This document shows, piece after piece, positions 18,579-23,780 of a DNA stretch of 25,468 nt. This DNA is from a bacterium (GTDB lineage Bacteria; BMS3Abin14): positions 1-25,468 of the forward strand of contig JARGFV010000031.1 of the NCBI GenBank assembly GCA_029210545.1, in the 5' to 3' direction. Within the stretch, counting starts at the first letter, position 1. Each line of letters begins with the position of its first letter. The notes beneath the pieces are model-generated. The model was not told the origin of the DNA and searched no databases. It saw only the letters and a list, made by a program, of their open reading frames with translations. The position numbers and the translations under genes were made by a program.

Positions 18579-19700
18579 TTGACTCAGATACAGGCAAAGA
18601 GACCCGGTCCCAGGGCGTACGAGCCCAAATGGCTCGCCTGGGAGATCACGGGCAGGTGCAACCTCAACTGCATTCACTGCCGCTCATCTTCGGACATGGG
18701 CTCGGACGAGGGGGATTTTTCCCTTGAAGAGGCCAGGAGGTTCATCGACGAACTGACGTCCTTTGCCACCCCGGTGGTTGTCCTGTCCGGAGGCGAGCCG
18801 CTGCTGCGCAAGGACGTCTTCGAGATCGCAGCCTACGGCACGAGCAAGGGTCTCCGCATGGCCCTGGCTACCAACGGCGTCCTGGTGGACGACCCGATCT
18901 GCGAGAGAATAAAGGCGTCGGGGATACGCATCGTTTCCCTGAGCCTGGACGGCTCCACGGCCGGAATCCACGACGATTTCCGCCAGCAGCCAGGAGCCTT
19001 CGACTCCACCCTGAGAGCGGCCGGATACTTCCGCAAACACGGCATCGAGTTCCTGGTCAACTCCTCCTTCACCAGGCGCAACCAGAAAGACATCCCCAAC
19101 ACCTACAAGCTGGCCAAAAAGATCGGCTCCACAGCCTGGTACATGTTCATGATCGTTCCCATGGGCAGGGGTGAGGACCTCCTGGCCGAACTCATCTCCA
19201 GGGAGGATTATGACGAGATCCTCAAGTGGCATTTCGCGATGGAGCTGGAGGAACATGAGATGCTCGTCCGTCCCACCTGTGCGCCCCATTATTACCGCAT
19301 CGTTCAGCAGGAGGCCAAGGCCAAGGGGATCGATTTTGAAAGAAGGAACCTGAAGTTCGGGACGGGGGGCTCAAAGGGGTGTATCGCCGCCCAGTCCATC
19401 GCCTTTATCGGCAGCCGCGGCGAGGTCCAGCCCTGCAGCTACTTCCCCCGGTCCGCGGGCAACGTCAAGAAGCAGCACTTCAAGGAGATCTGGGAAAACA
19501 GCCGGCTCTTCAATGACATGAGAAGCTTCAAGGATTACAAGGGCCGATGCGGCTCCTGTGAATACCTCGGAGTCTGCGGCGGCTGCCGCGCACGTGCCCT
19601 GGCCATTACCGGCGACTACATGGAGGAAGAACCGTTTTGCGACCACATCCCGAAAAAGGTCCTCCGTGAAAGGGAAAAGGAGTTAAAAACTGATGAATAA
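18579..19700 (+). CDS. AhbD-like radical SAM/SPASM heme-biosynthesis enzyme
   Basis: 373 residues. Radical SAM motif CNLNCIHC (Cys 27, 31, 34) and SAM-binding SGGEPLLR, then a C-terminal SPASM-like Cys set ([37 protein letters not shown]) for a second cluster. The blocks TCAPHYYRI and [15 protein letters not shown] are what I know of AhbD, which decarboxylates two propionates of Fe-coproporphyrin III to vinyls, giving heme b in the siroheme route. The TTG start at 18579 has GGAGG six bases upstream; upstream codons look non-coding. The stop overlaps hemE by 8 bases. Its presence with hemE, hemH and hemG is odd, and its substrate here may differ. Confidence 0.85.
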
Positions 19701-20715
19701 CACTTATATCGACGCCTGCTTTCGCCGCCCGACGTCCCACACGCCGATCTGGATCATGCGCCAGGCCGGACGGTACATGCCCCAGTACCAGGCGGTCCGG
19801 GGAGAGGTCGACTTTCTCACCCTCTGCAAAACCCCTGAGCTGGCCACCAAAGTCACCCTGCTGCCCATCGACCTTCTCAACGTGGACGCGGCCATCCTCT
19901 TTTCCGACATCCTGATCCCTTTAGAGCCCATGGGTATCGACGTCACCTTCGAAGACAAGCGCGGACCGGTCCTGTCCGCTGTCCAGGACGAGGCCGCCAT
20001 CAGGAACCTGCGAACGATCGAATCGGAAGAGGACGTGGGGTTCGTCATGGATGCCATCCGGATGATCAGGCGGGAGCTGGAAGGACGGGTACCCCTTATC
20101 GGCTTTTCCGGCTCCCCGTTCACACTGGCCACCTATGCCGTCGAGGGCGGGACCACCAAGAGTTTCCACAACATCAAGGGCCTGATCTACTCCAGGCCGG
20201 AGTTGGCTGACTACCTCATGGACCTTCTTGCCGACGTTGTGATCAACTATCTCAACGCCCAGGTTGACGCCGGCGCCCAGGCTGTTCAGATCTTCGACAC
20301 CTGGGGCGGTATCCTTGCGGATCCCGAATACGTCAGGTTCTCTCTCAAGCCGGTCCAGAAGGTCATCGCCAACCTCAAGCGGGACGGGGTTCCGGTCATC
20401 TATTACCTCAACAACGGCGCCTATCTGGCCCACCACATGGACAGCGTGGACGCCGACGTGATCGGCATCGACTGGCGTCAGGACATCGCCCGTTCCAGGG
20501 CCACTTTCGGAAAGACGAAGGGGGTGCAGGGGAATCTGGATCCCACCGTTCTGTTCGCCCCTCCGGAGGAGATCCGGAGAAGAGCCCACGCCATCATGGA
20601 CGCTGCCGGGCCCGAACCCGGCCACCTGTTCAATCTTGGTCACGGGATCCTTCCGCCCACCCCCGTGGAAAACGCCATCACGCTGGTCGAAGCGGTCCAC
20701 GAATACAGACGCTGA
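19693..20715 (+). CDS. hemE: Uroporphyrinogen decarboxylase
   Basis: 340 residues, the usual length. HemE removes four acetate carboxyls from uroporphyrinogen III to give coproporphyrinogen III. Signature [15 protein letters not shown] at about 17-31, including the substrate-binding Arg; FSDILIP near 73 with the catalytic Asp; [16 protein letters not shown]; and NLGHGILP at the end. The ATG lies within the last codons of the AhbD-like gene, so the two are translationally coupled. One base separates it from hemH. Confidence 0.96.
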
Positions 20716-20716
20716 G

Positions 20717-21694
20717 ATGGATCCAGTGGATAGGGGAGGGGCGGTCCTTCTGCTCAACATGGGAGGCCCCGACTCCCTCGAAGCGGTACAGCCATTTTTA
20801 CGAAACCTTTTCAGCGATCCGGCGATCATCACCCTGCCTGAACTGCTGCGCCGCCCCCTCGCCTCCTTTCTTTCCGCCCGCAGAGCCAGTAAGGTCATAC
20901 CCCGCTATAGGGTCATCGGCGGGAAAAGCCCCATTGGGGAGCTGACCCGGAATCAGGCGGCGGCCCTTGCTGCCCTTTTGCCGGCCGGTTTTGGTCCTGT
21001 TCTTCCCGCATTCAGCTACTGGAACCCTTTTATCCAGGAGGCCGTGGAGGCTGCCGCCGCCTCGGGAGCCAGGCGTCTGGTGGCCCTTTCCCTTTACCCC
21101 CAGTACTGCACGGCCACCACGGGGACCTGCGTTGAGGAACTCTCCATGCTCCTTCCGGGCACCCCCTTCGAGTCGTCTGTCCAGATCATCGACTCCTGGC
21201 CCACCCACCCGGGTTACCTCGATGCCCTCGCCTCCACCATCGAGGAGGCTATCGAACAGGTTCCTGAGGAGAGAAAGGACGACGTGGTCGTGCTGTTTTC
21301 CGCCCACGGAGTTCCGCGGAAGCTCGTGGACAGGGGAGACCCCTACCTTGCCGAGATTCTCGCCACCGTAAACGGTGTCGTTGGGCGGCTTGGCGGCAGA
21401 CCCCACGAACTTGCTTTCCAGAGCCGCCTCGGGCCCGTCAAATGGCTCGAACCTTCCCTGCCCGAAAAGTTGGCCGAACTGGCCGCCGGCAGAACTCCTC
21501 CCCTCGTCATTGTGCCCGTATCGTTCGTGTCGGATCACATCGAAACCCTTTACGAACTGGACATACAGCACAGGGCAATGGCAAAAGAGCTCGGTTTCGA
21601 TATTTATGTCAGGGCACCGGCTTTAAACTCGAGACCGGATTTTATCGCAGCCCTCGCGGACCTGGTTTTGAATTCCCTGCGGGAGGGTAACTAG
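20717..21694 (+). CDS. hemH: Ferrochelatase
   Basis: 325 residues. Inserts iron into a porphyrin. Opening LLLNMGGPDS, catalytic-His segment FSAHGVPRKLVDRGDPY near 196, and SFVSDHIETLYELD with the conserved acidic residue. The opening motif is NMGGP. Protoporphyrin-type ferrochelatases such as human have Met there, whereas the coproporphyrin-type enzyme of Bacillus subtilis has Tyr (AYGTP). This favours protoporphyrin as substrate but does not prove it. I chose the ATG at 20717, one base after hemE stops; the frame extends upstream but only inside hemE. Confidence 0.95.
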   Translation: MDPVDRGGAVLLLNMGGPDSLEAVQPFLRNLFSDPAIITLPELLRRPLASFLSARRASKVIPRYRVIGGKSPIGELTRNQAAALAALLPAGFGPVLPAFSYWNPFIQEAVEAAAASGARRLVALSLYPQYCTATTGTCVEELSMLLPGTPFESSVQIIDSWPTHPGYLDALASTIEEAIEQVPEERKDDVVVLFSAHGVPRKLVDRGDPYLAEILATVNGVVGRLGGRPHELAFQSRLGPVKWLEPSLPEKLAELAAGRTPPLVIVPVSFVSDHIETLYELDIQHRAMAKELGFDIYVRAPALNSRPDFIAALADLVLNSLREGN

Positions 21695-21759
21695 GGTCTG
21701 GGGTCTGGAAAAGGCCGCCAATTCTTCTTCCACATTCGTAACTCCTTTATTCCACTTTG

Positions 21760-21822
21760 ATCTTGATAGAGTCGCAAAAAGTCCAATCCGGGACTTTTTG
21801 CGAGTCCATCAATCTTGAATTT
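21760..21822. repeat. REP-like palindrome after hemH
   Basis: TCGCAAAAAGTCC and GGACTTTTTGCGA are perfect 13-bp arms around the loop AATCCG. With two mismatches the arms extend to 22 bp (TTGATAGAG outside on the left, GAGTCCATCAA on the right). T-runs inside the arms make it a possible terminator between hemH and the marR-hemG unit. Confidence 0.7.
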
Positions 21823-21836
21823 TGCATTCAAAGAGC

Positions 21837-21865
21837 TTGACATGTCATCCTAGCCGCCCTAATAT
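21837..21865 (+). promoter_or_regulatory. Strong promoter of marR-hemG
   Basis: TTGACA (21837-21842), exactly 17 bp, then TAATAT (21860-21865). This is near the sigma70 consensus and the best promoter in the window. The -10 box lies within the first palindrome of the operator pair. Confidence 0.8.
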
Positions 21866-21888
21866 TTAGGCTTCCTAATAGTTAGGAA
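21858..21888 (+). promoter_or_regulatory. Tandem palindromic operators, probably for the MarR protein
   Basis: CCTAA-TAT-TTAGG (21858-21870) and TTCCTAA-TAG-TTAGGAA (21872-21888) share the core CCTAA-N3-TTAGG and have centres 16 bp apart. They cover the -10 box and the predicted transcription start. Binding by the downstream MarR-type regulator, and so autorepression of marR-hemG, is the simple reading. Confidence 0.75.
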
Positions 21889-21909
21889 ACTTAACAAGGA
21901 GTGTTGGCC

Positions 21910-22362
21910 GTGTCCGACCCTATCCATACCATCGCCCAGCTCTACCCCAGGCTTATGCGGGCCATGGGGCATCTGCGGGGGGCGGTGGATGAGACCATGG
22001 ACCTCACCTACAACCAGTACAAGGCCCTCCTGACGCTGTCCGACACAGGTCCCTGTACCCTCAACACCCTGAGCCAGGAGCTGGGGGTCGCCACCAGTTC
22101 CGCAAGCCAGATGGTTGATCGCCTGTTCTCCATGGACCTTGTTGTGAGAACCCCTGCGGATGAAGATCGGCGGCGCATCGTGCTGAACACTTCCCGGGAG
22201 GGAGAGGATCTCCTCGACCGGGTCAAGGAGGATATCGTCAGGCGGTACCAGGACCTTTTCAAGCATCTCGGCCCGGCCGAGCAGAGCAACCTGGCTGGTG
22301 CCATTCACACGCTCGTCCGCATCCTCGAAAGAGCTATTCAGGAAGAGGAGAGGGGGAAATAA
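21910..22362 (+). CDS. MarR-family transcriptional regulator
   Basis: 150 residues with a winged helix-turn-helix (about 28-100; TYNQYKALLTL, NTLSQELGVATSSASQMVDRL, then the wing RTPADEDRRRIVLNT) between helices for dimerisation. MarR proteins are dimers that bind palindromes and release on a ligand or redox signal. GTG at 21910 has AAGGAG eight bases before it; the GTG at 21901 abuts the ribosome site and is unlikely. It lies two bases before hemG, so its regulon very likely includes hemG. The signal could be a porphyrin, heme or an oxidant; the sequence does not say. Confidence 0.92.
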   Translation: MSDPIHTIAQLYPRLMRAMGHLRGAVDETMDLTYNQYKALLTLSDTGPCTLNTLSQELGVATSSASQMVDRLFSMDLVVRTPADEDRRRIVLNTSREGEDLLDRVKEDIVRRYQDLFKHLGPAEQSNLAGAIHTLVRILERAIQEEERGK

Positions 22363-22364
22363 CG

Positions 22365-23780
22365 ATGTCACTTCAGACCAGGAGGATCGCTGTCATCGGC
22401 GGCGGCATATCAGGACTTTCCGCTGCCTGGTTCGTCAGGAGGATCGCAAGGCAGCAAGGCCGCCCTGTACAGGTAGACCTGTTCGAAAAGAAAGAGCGGC
22501 CCGGCGGCAAATTCGAAACCGTTAAGGATCAGGGGTTTACCATCGAAGGTGGCCCCAACGGTTTTCTTGACAGCAAACCGTGGACCCTTGACCTCGTGCG
22601 CGAGCTGGGGATGGAGGACCGGCTCCTCCCGAGCGACCAGGCGGCTGCCAGAAGGTTCATCTATTCGAGGGGGAAACTCCACGAGCTCAAGCCCTCGCCG
22701 GTCTCTTTTTTCCTCGGAGGTCCCCTCTCCGTAAGGGGGCGCCTCAGGGTGATCGGAGAGCTCTGGGCCCGGACCACTCCCAAGGGCAAGGACACCTCCC
22801 TCGCCGAGTTCGCACGTCGTCGCCTCGGTCCGGAAGCGTTGGACAGGCTTCTCGATCCCATGGTTTCCGGGATCTTCGCCGGAGATCCCGAAAGGATGAG
22901 CCTGAGGGCTTCCTTTCCGCGGATCGCAGAGCTCGAGGAGCAATACGGCGGCCTGACAAGGGCCATGCTCAAGATCGCGTCGGAAAAAAAGAAAGCCAAA
23001 AAACGCGGTGAGGACACCGGTGCCGCCTCCGGTCCCTCCGGCCCGGGAGGGGTGCTGACGTCATTCAAGAGCGGCGTCAGCGAACTCACGGACCGCCTGG
23101 CTCTCGAGTTGGGTGAAGGTATGCACATCGGCGACGGGGTCAACTTTCTCCGCCGGGAGGGAGGGCTGTACAGGATCGTGACCACTGGGGGTGAATACGA
23201 GGCGGACGCTGTCATCATGGCCACCCCTTCCGACGTCACCGCTGCCATCCTTTCCGACATCGCACCCGACAGCGGTGCCATCCTTTCCAGGATCCCCTAC
23301 TCGCCCATGGCTGTCGTCGGCGTCGGTTTCGACCTGACAGATCTCAAGAGCCCGCCTCAGGGTTTCGGCTACCTCATACCAGGGGTCGAAAAGCGCCGCA
23401 TCCTGGGCGCCCTGTGGACTTCGAGCATTTTTCCAGGACACCGCTCTCCAGCGGGCAAGTTCCTGATCCGCACCATGGTAGGAGGAGCCAAGGACCACGA
23501 GACACCTTTCCTTCCCGACGAAGAGCTGATCCCCCTGGTGAGGGAGGAGCTCCGGGTCACCATGGGAGTGGAGGCCGTCCCGTCCTTCACATCGGTCATT
23601 CGGTGGCGCAAAGCGATCCCGCTTTATACGGTGGGACACCTCGACAGGGTCGCCGAGGTTGAAGGGCGGCTGCCCCACGGACTTTTTCTGGCCGGCAACG
23701 CCTACCGTGGAGTCGGCATCAACGATTGCGTGAGGGAGTCAGAGGTCGCGGCCCGGAAGGCCCTGGAAGGGCTGGACTGA
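22365..23780 (+). CDS. hemG: HemY-type FAD protoporphyrinogen (or coproporphyrinogen) oxidase
   Basis: 471 residues. The N-terminal FAD-binding Rossmann motif is GGGISGLSAAW, followed by a glutamate-containing LFEKKERPGGKFET. Later blocks: GPNGFLDSKPW, DPMVSGIFAGDPERMSLR and the C-terminal GLFLAGNAYRGVGINDCVRE, which closes the FAD site. The family (HemY, also named HemG in many genomes) takes six electrons from a porphyrinogen, normally with oxygen. Members act on protoporphyrinogen IX or, as CgoX in Gram-positives, on coproporphyrinogen III; the sequence alone does not decide. It is co-transcribed with marR. Confidence 0.94.
   Translation: MSLQTRRIAVIGGGISGLSAAWFVRRIARQQGRPVQVDLFEKKERPGGKFETVKDQGFTIEGGPNGFLDSKPWTLDLVRELGMEDRLLPSDQAAARRFIYSRGKLHELKPSPVSFFLGGPLSVRGRLRVIGELWARTTPKGKDTSLAEFARRRLGPEALDRLLDPMVSGIFAGDPERMSLRASFPRIAELEEQYGGLTRAMLKIASEKKKAKKRGEDTGAASGPSGPGGVLTSFKSGVSELTDRLALELGEGMHIGDGVNFLRREGGLYRIVTTGGEYEADAVIMATPSDVTAAILSDIAPDSGAILSRIPYSPMAVVGVGFDLTDLKSPPQGFGYLIPGVEKRRILGALWTSSIFPGHRSPAGKFLIRTMVGGAKDHETPFLPDEELIPLVREELRVTMGVEAVPSFTSVIRWRKAIPLYTVGHLDRVAEVEGRLPHGLFLAGNAYRGVGINDCVRESEVAARKALEGLD

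Follow-up and report, generated by a model that had tools for sequence, protein, structure and literature searches.

A diverged AhbD-like radical SAM clade encoded beside hemE as a candidate replacement for HemN in late heme synthesis

The window analyzed here is a 25,468-nt contig (JARGFV010000031.1, assembly GCA_029210545.1) of a 2.72-Mb bacterial metagenome-assembled genome (MAG; GTDB lineage Bacteria; BMS3Abin14) in 241 contigs, estimated to be 97.5% complete. It carries a late heme locus in which a gene for an AhbD-like radical SAM/SPASM enzyme is followed by hemE, hemH, a marR-type gene and hemY. The diverged AhbD clade to which this enzyme belongs is proposed, with a probability put slightly above even, to replace HemN/HemF by converting coproporphyrinogen III to protoporphyrinogen IX within a protoporphyrin-type late heme pathway. 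As read from sequence, the case consists of the gene set, the lack of alternative enzymes, the conserved pairing of ahbD with hemE and the type to which each partner enzyme belongs. Replacement of HemN was favored over decarboxylation of coproheme, although it is unproven, because of the partner-enzyme types, the missing HemN and the placement of ahbD next to hemE; coproheme decarboxylation stays alive because of the AhbD ancestry of the clade and two CgoX-like basic residues in its HemYs. The first-pass annotation of the window had set out both substrates and made no choice, and the partner enzymes lean to the former, short of proof.

In the proposed pathway, HemE would supply coproporphyrinogen III, and oxidative decarboxylation by the AhbD-like enzyme would turn the propionates on rings A and B into vinyls, so that protoporphyrinogen IX is formed. 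If the chemistry follows that of HemN and AhbD, a 5'-deoxyadenosyl radical would take a hydrogen from the beta carbon of the propionate, and electrons would leave via the auxiliary clusters of the enzyme. HemY would then oxidize protoporphyrinogen IX to protoporphyrin IX, and HemH would insert iron to give heme b.

Searches for other enzymes of the step

Whole-genome searches for hemN, hemF, chdC and ahbA/B/C, as recommended in the first-pass annotation, were run and found none of these genes, so that its remark on a missing coproporphyrinogen oxidase holds genome-wide. The single HemN_C match was HemW, encoded beside an hrcA-like gene and carrying CxxxCxxCxF (sequence HIPFCRRLCPYCHF). The fourth Cys is present in E. 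coli HemN and in the true HemNs of genomes G094 and G113, where the HemW form has Phe; all HemN-like genes checked in operon-bearing genomes without HemN over the cut-off had Phe at this position, as in HemW, and so lacked the Cys of HemN. HemF was not found in the window's own genome, the one genome searched for it, nor was ChdC found there; both searches gave matches in control genomes. HemN over the cut-off was absent from all 12 genomes of the window's family, several of them near complete, and from 46 of 47 other operon-bearing genomes. HemJ, a protoporphyrinogen-only oxidase, was not over the cut-off in any clade genome searched.

For the siroheme-dependent route, AhbA/B (PF17805) was absent from the 12 family genomes and from G021 and G032, and a search with the AhbD-like protein found no AhbC in the own genome or the family. 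With neither AhbA/B nor AhbC found, no supply of coproheme from siroheme is predicted. Weaker AhbD-like matches in the own genome were considered as AhbC candidates and rejected; judged by eye and by position, they look like MoaA, a further SPASM protein and a pair of GeoRSP type. The GeoRSP-type radical SAM/SPASM pair lies at L016 6225-8729 with an adjoining aminotransferase-like gene.

A plainer explanation, that the operon is accessory, with a normal hemN or a complete siroheme route encoded elsewhere, was judged very improbable. It could appeal to the fragmentation and completeness of the own MAG and to G113 (L254), the sole operon-bearing genome that also has a true HemN (603 bits, with the fourth Cys), which may reflect redundancy or a binning error. 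It fails because the own genome, at its estimated completeness, lacks HemN, HemF, ChdC, AhbA/B and AhbC, and the absences recur in the family (HemN, AhbA/B) and the other operon-bearing genomes (HemN). The version put forward in the first-pass annotation, which places hemN elsewhere and lets AhbD serve a siroheme route in parallel, is thus refuted for the own genome and family unless all assemblies miss the same gene. Its suggestion that the AhbD-like enzyme fills the missing propionate decarboxylation gained support from the same searches and from the linkage of ahbD to hemE across phyla.

The AhbD-like protein and its pairing with hemE

Among 72 NCBIfam families, the AhbD-like protein matched TIGR04545 (AhbD) best by far, at 437.9 bits, missing the curated equivalog cut-off of 500; full-length matches in the remaining genomes of the family scored 432-453 bits. 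Pfam domains were Radical_SAM and SPASM. The radical SAM motif CX3CX2C (C27/C31/C34) and a full eight-cysteine SPASM motif (C234/C268/C286/C324/C327/C333/C336/C354) were identified, and both were kept in 28/28 members of the window's AhbD clade. The arrangement CX20-33CX17CX36-37CX2CX5CX2CX17-35C is that of AhbD of methanogen and sulfate-reducer type (PMC10452713). The HemN-type CX3CX2CXC and the HemN_C domain were absent from the protein, where CX3CX2C is followed by RS and no HemN_C match was obtained.

The tree placement advised in the first-pass annotation was carried out, and the clade (28 members, support 100/100) was nested among AhbDs, apart from AhbC. Its stem was long (0.55) and the clade itself tight, a shape that a switch of substrate would be expected to leave. 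Residues fixed in the clade include Y188 in place of His, S287 in place of Gly and T262, an insertion. The His-to-Tyr change at 188 was considered as a lost heme-iron ligand, an idea dropped because the archaeal-type branch mostly has Ser there. No solved structure close to AhbD was found (best match 81 bits), and a plasmid search for the clade returned only more distant AhbD/TIGR04053-type relatives.

Conservation of the locus was compared in the window's family (12 genomes) and then in domain-level genomes, with no relatives of the ranks between. Within the family, ahbD-hemE(-hemH-hemY) was found wherever contigs were long enough. A pattern search of genome contigs gave at least 572 confirmed relatives, and locus counts were taken from the best 80 of these, which came mostly from Nitrospirota and Desulfobacterota MAGs, with one Aquificota and one Actinomycetota-labelled MAG. 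In these best 80 loci, ahbD lay directly upstream of hemE in 75, and on the same strand hemH was present in 38 and hemY in 19; genome counts are not independent events. Because it is conserved in other phyla, the arrangement is well beyond chance. The position of ahbD directly before hemE, the gene for the enzyme that makes coproporphyrinogen III, was counted in favor of HemN replacement.

Several loci of this type showed further insertions. An IS110-family transposase gene lies between ahbD and hemE in G021 (L072 9842-11149), and about 2.9 kb separates hemH from marR in G007 (L064 11953-14872). Most Desulfobulbaceae-type loci have a gene of about 190 aa between hemE and hemH (L154 11145-11738, L200 5385-5963 and similar); HemJ or HemG was rejected as its identity, as the product, judged by eye, looks like an HD-domain phosphohydrolase.

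Partner enzymes and rival substrates

The first-pass annotation had pointed to the protoporphyrin-type NMGGP motif of HemH, and this proved informative, as HemH was of protoporphyrin type across the clade. The window's HemH carries NMGGP, a 13-residue QS...W segment and ETLYELD, and scored 217 bits against human ferrochelatase and at most 96 against coproporphyrin ferrochelatases. The QS-to-W segment was 13 residues long in 43/44 clade HemHs, as in human and E. coli HemH. It was 14-15 residues long in all five HemHs of genomes with ordinary AhbD and no AhbABC, and in 10 of the 12 scorable HemHs of ChdC genomes, the two exceptions being second HemH copies. In the HemH tree, HemHs of most ChdC genomes joined those of the ordinary-AhbD genomes (100/99), with the window's clade outside. 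By bit scores, motifs and segment length, HemHs of the window's clade were assigned to the protoporphyrin (PpfC) type; the same features and the tree set them apart from the coproporphyrin (CpfC) type. Human/E. coli-type HemH is not expected to take the tetracarboxylate coproporphyrin III. One MAG (G068; L244, L251, L253) has one coproporphyrin-type and one protoporphyrin-type HemH/HemY set, from two routes or from contamination.

HemYs were classified by the residue rules that separate protoporphyrinogen from coproporphyrinogen oxidases (PMC10740692). For the human row of the comparison, the wild-type Arg at position 59 was entered and its N63 value was not used. The window's HemY scored 319 bits against the M. 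xanthus enzyme and 223 against that of B. subtilis. All 24 clade HemYs had N63/R95/F329/L332 (M. xanthus numbering) and Leu at B. subtilis F227, a protoporphyrinogen-oxidase (PgoX) signature. CgoX was scored by Asp at N63, a small residue at R95, Phe227 and Arg364; of the CgoX-type features, the window's HemY showed only R364 and K71, the other positions being PgoX-like. On a Bacteroides plasmid, a HemY whose gene adjoins hemN had the N/R/F/L set and Ser at 364.

Five genomes (G025, G031, G042, G051 and G097) had ordinary AhbD but lacked AhbA/B and ChdC and showed no HemN scoring over the cut-off. Their HemYs carried the coproporphyrinogen-oxidase set and formed one 100/100 clade with those of ChdC genomes and B. 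subtilis CgoX, which excluded the window type. A split is read from these residues, the HemH segment and the trees: ordinary AhbD without AhbABC goes with coproporphyrin-type HemY and HemH, whereas the diverged clade goes with protoporphyrin-type HemH and HemY cavity residues. An AhbD ending the coproporphyrin route has already been published; the split is new as far as the literature searched shows. No published account of the split or of HemN replacement was found in a search that did not cover the 2015 and 2017 papers of Dailey and co-workers.

Several observations weigh against replacement of HemN. The clade is nested inside AhbD as sister to G051, whose partner enzymes are coproporphyrin-type and whose ahbD lies inside a hemA-hemC-hemD-hemB-ahbD operon with an adjoining aminotransferase gene, probably hemL; from this operon, the ancestor of the clade was likely an AhbD serving the coproporphyrin route. 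The clade HemYs keep the CgoX-like basic residues K/R71 and R364 (B. subtilis numbering) in 24/24 members and were placed between M. xanthus PgoX and CgoX with weak support (83/75), and the HemH tree has the Nitrospirota and Desulfobacterota proteins close to its middle. Characterized AhbDs use Fe-coproporphyrin III (PMC10452713, PMC11306076), some organisms finish the coproporphyrin route with AhbD (2020 review, PMC7242693), and ahbD is co-located with hemY/hemH/hemQ or with ahbA/B/C (2023 review, PMC10548856). No biochemistry on the clade was found in the literature searched.

Most of these points would fit a pathway in which HemY oxidizes coproporphyrinogen III, HemH makes coproheme and the AhbD-like enzyme, in place of ChdC, turns coproheme into heme b by decarboxylation; the features that look protoporphyrin-like would then be ancestral and would not decide the substrate. 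This pathway keeps an appreciable probability, well short of even. It accords with the activity of the AhbD family, with the published substitution of AhbD for ChdC and with the same gene combination in the five genomes above. Those genomes, however, have clear coproporphyrin-type HemY and HemH, which the window's clade lacks; a HemH of the human/E. coli type would be ill suited to the substrate, and ahbD is paired with hemE, not with hemH.

A reordered or promiscuous use of the enzyme, either on metal-free coproporphyrin III once HemY has acted or on two or more of the substrates coproporphyrinogen III, coproporphyrin III and coproheme, so that both routes run, was considered improbable. The mixed HemY signature (a narrow cavity with CgoX-like basic residues) in all 24 clade members would suit it; HemH, however, is protoporphyrin-type throughout, and to our knowledge no enzyme decarboxylating metal-free coproporphyrin III has a precedent, which was counted against it.

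Layout of the locus and comparison with known systems

The positions and order of the five genes given in the first-pass annotation were confirmed from the sequence and family scans (Table 1), with two corrections: the gene it named hemG does encode a protoporphyrinogen-oxidase family member, of HemY type and not E. coli HemG, and the genes it described as fused by operon overlap without any gene fusion. The overlap between the ahbD-like gene and hemE is 8 nt, and the hemH ATG follows the hemE stop after 1 nt. The palindromic repeat between hemH and marR has about 45 further similar copies genome-wide (REP-like).

Table 1. Features of the heme locus in the window
Feature	Position	Strand	Details
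ahbD-like radical SAM/SPASM gene	18579..19700	+	373 aa; TTG start (set from homologues); TIGR04545, Radical_SAM + SPASM
hemE, uroporphyrinogen III decarboxylase	19693..20715	+	ATG start 19693; TIGR01464, 391 bits (cut-off 303)
hemH, ferrochelatase	20717..21694	+	ATG start 20717; TIGR00109, 291 bits (cut-off 125)
interspersed palindromic repeat	21763..21812		22-nt arms, 6-nt loop; outside pathway
marR, MarR-type regulator	21901..22362	+	family scan; present in only part of the window's family
hemY, FAD-dependent porphyrinogen oxidase	22365..23780	+	TIGR00562, 310 bits (cut-off 98)

On the sequence comparisons made here, chances are about equal for and against the clade adding a third coproporphyrinogen III decarboxylase to HemF and HemN. 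This would be a SPASM radical SAM enzyme, derived from coproheme decarboxylases, that makes protoporphyrinogen IX in many Nitrospirota, Desulfobacterota and relatives without HemN. Members of the clade have probably been labelled heme b synthase in annotations and assigned to the siroheme or coproporphyrin pathway. If HemN is replaced, the rule that AhbD indicates one of those pathways would be wrong for a large clade, and the coproporphyrinogen III step would have a third enzyme class. If coproheme is the substrate, protoporphyrin-type HemH and HemY using coproporphyrin would overturn the residue rules that distinguish the routes. Anaerobes are numerous among these bacteria, some of them probably cytochrome-rich, and their heme synthesis is inferred from annotation only.

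The closest known system is the AhbD heme synthase (TIGR04545; Desulfovibrio vulgaris, Methanosarcina barkeri), which is the best family for the window's protein, shares both cysteine motifs, surrounds it in the tree and performs chemistry of the same kind, two propionates to vinyls. The window's protein differs in falling below the equivalog cut-off, in forming a separate long-stemmed clade with its own fixed residues, and in being encoded with hemE, hemH and hemY without AhbA/B/C. The coproporphyrin pathway ending in AhbD (PMC7242693, PMC10548856) likewise has an AhbD-family enzyme, HemE, HemH and HemY with no AhbABC and no ChdC, but the window's HemH and most of its HemY residues are protoporphyrin-type, unlike the five genomes that fit the published arrangement. 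HemN/CgdH, the oxygen-independent coproporphyrinogen III dehydrogenase, uses radical SAM chemistry for the step proposed here, from coproporphyrinogen III to protoporphyrinogen IX, and is missing where the window's clade is present; the window's enzyme belongs to another radical SAM subfamily, having a SPASM domain with auxiliary clusters and neither HemN_C nor CX3CX2CXC.

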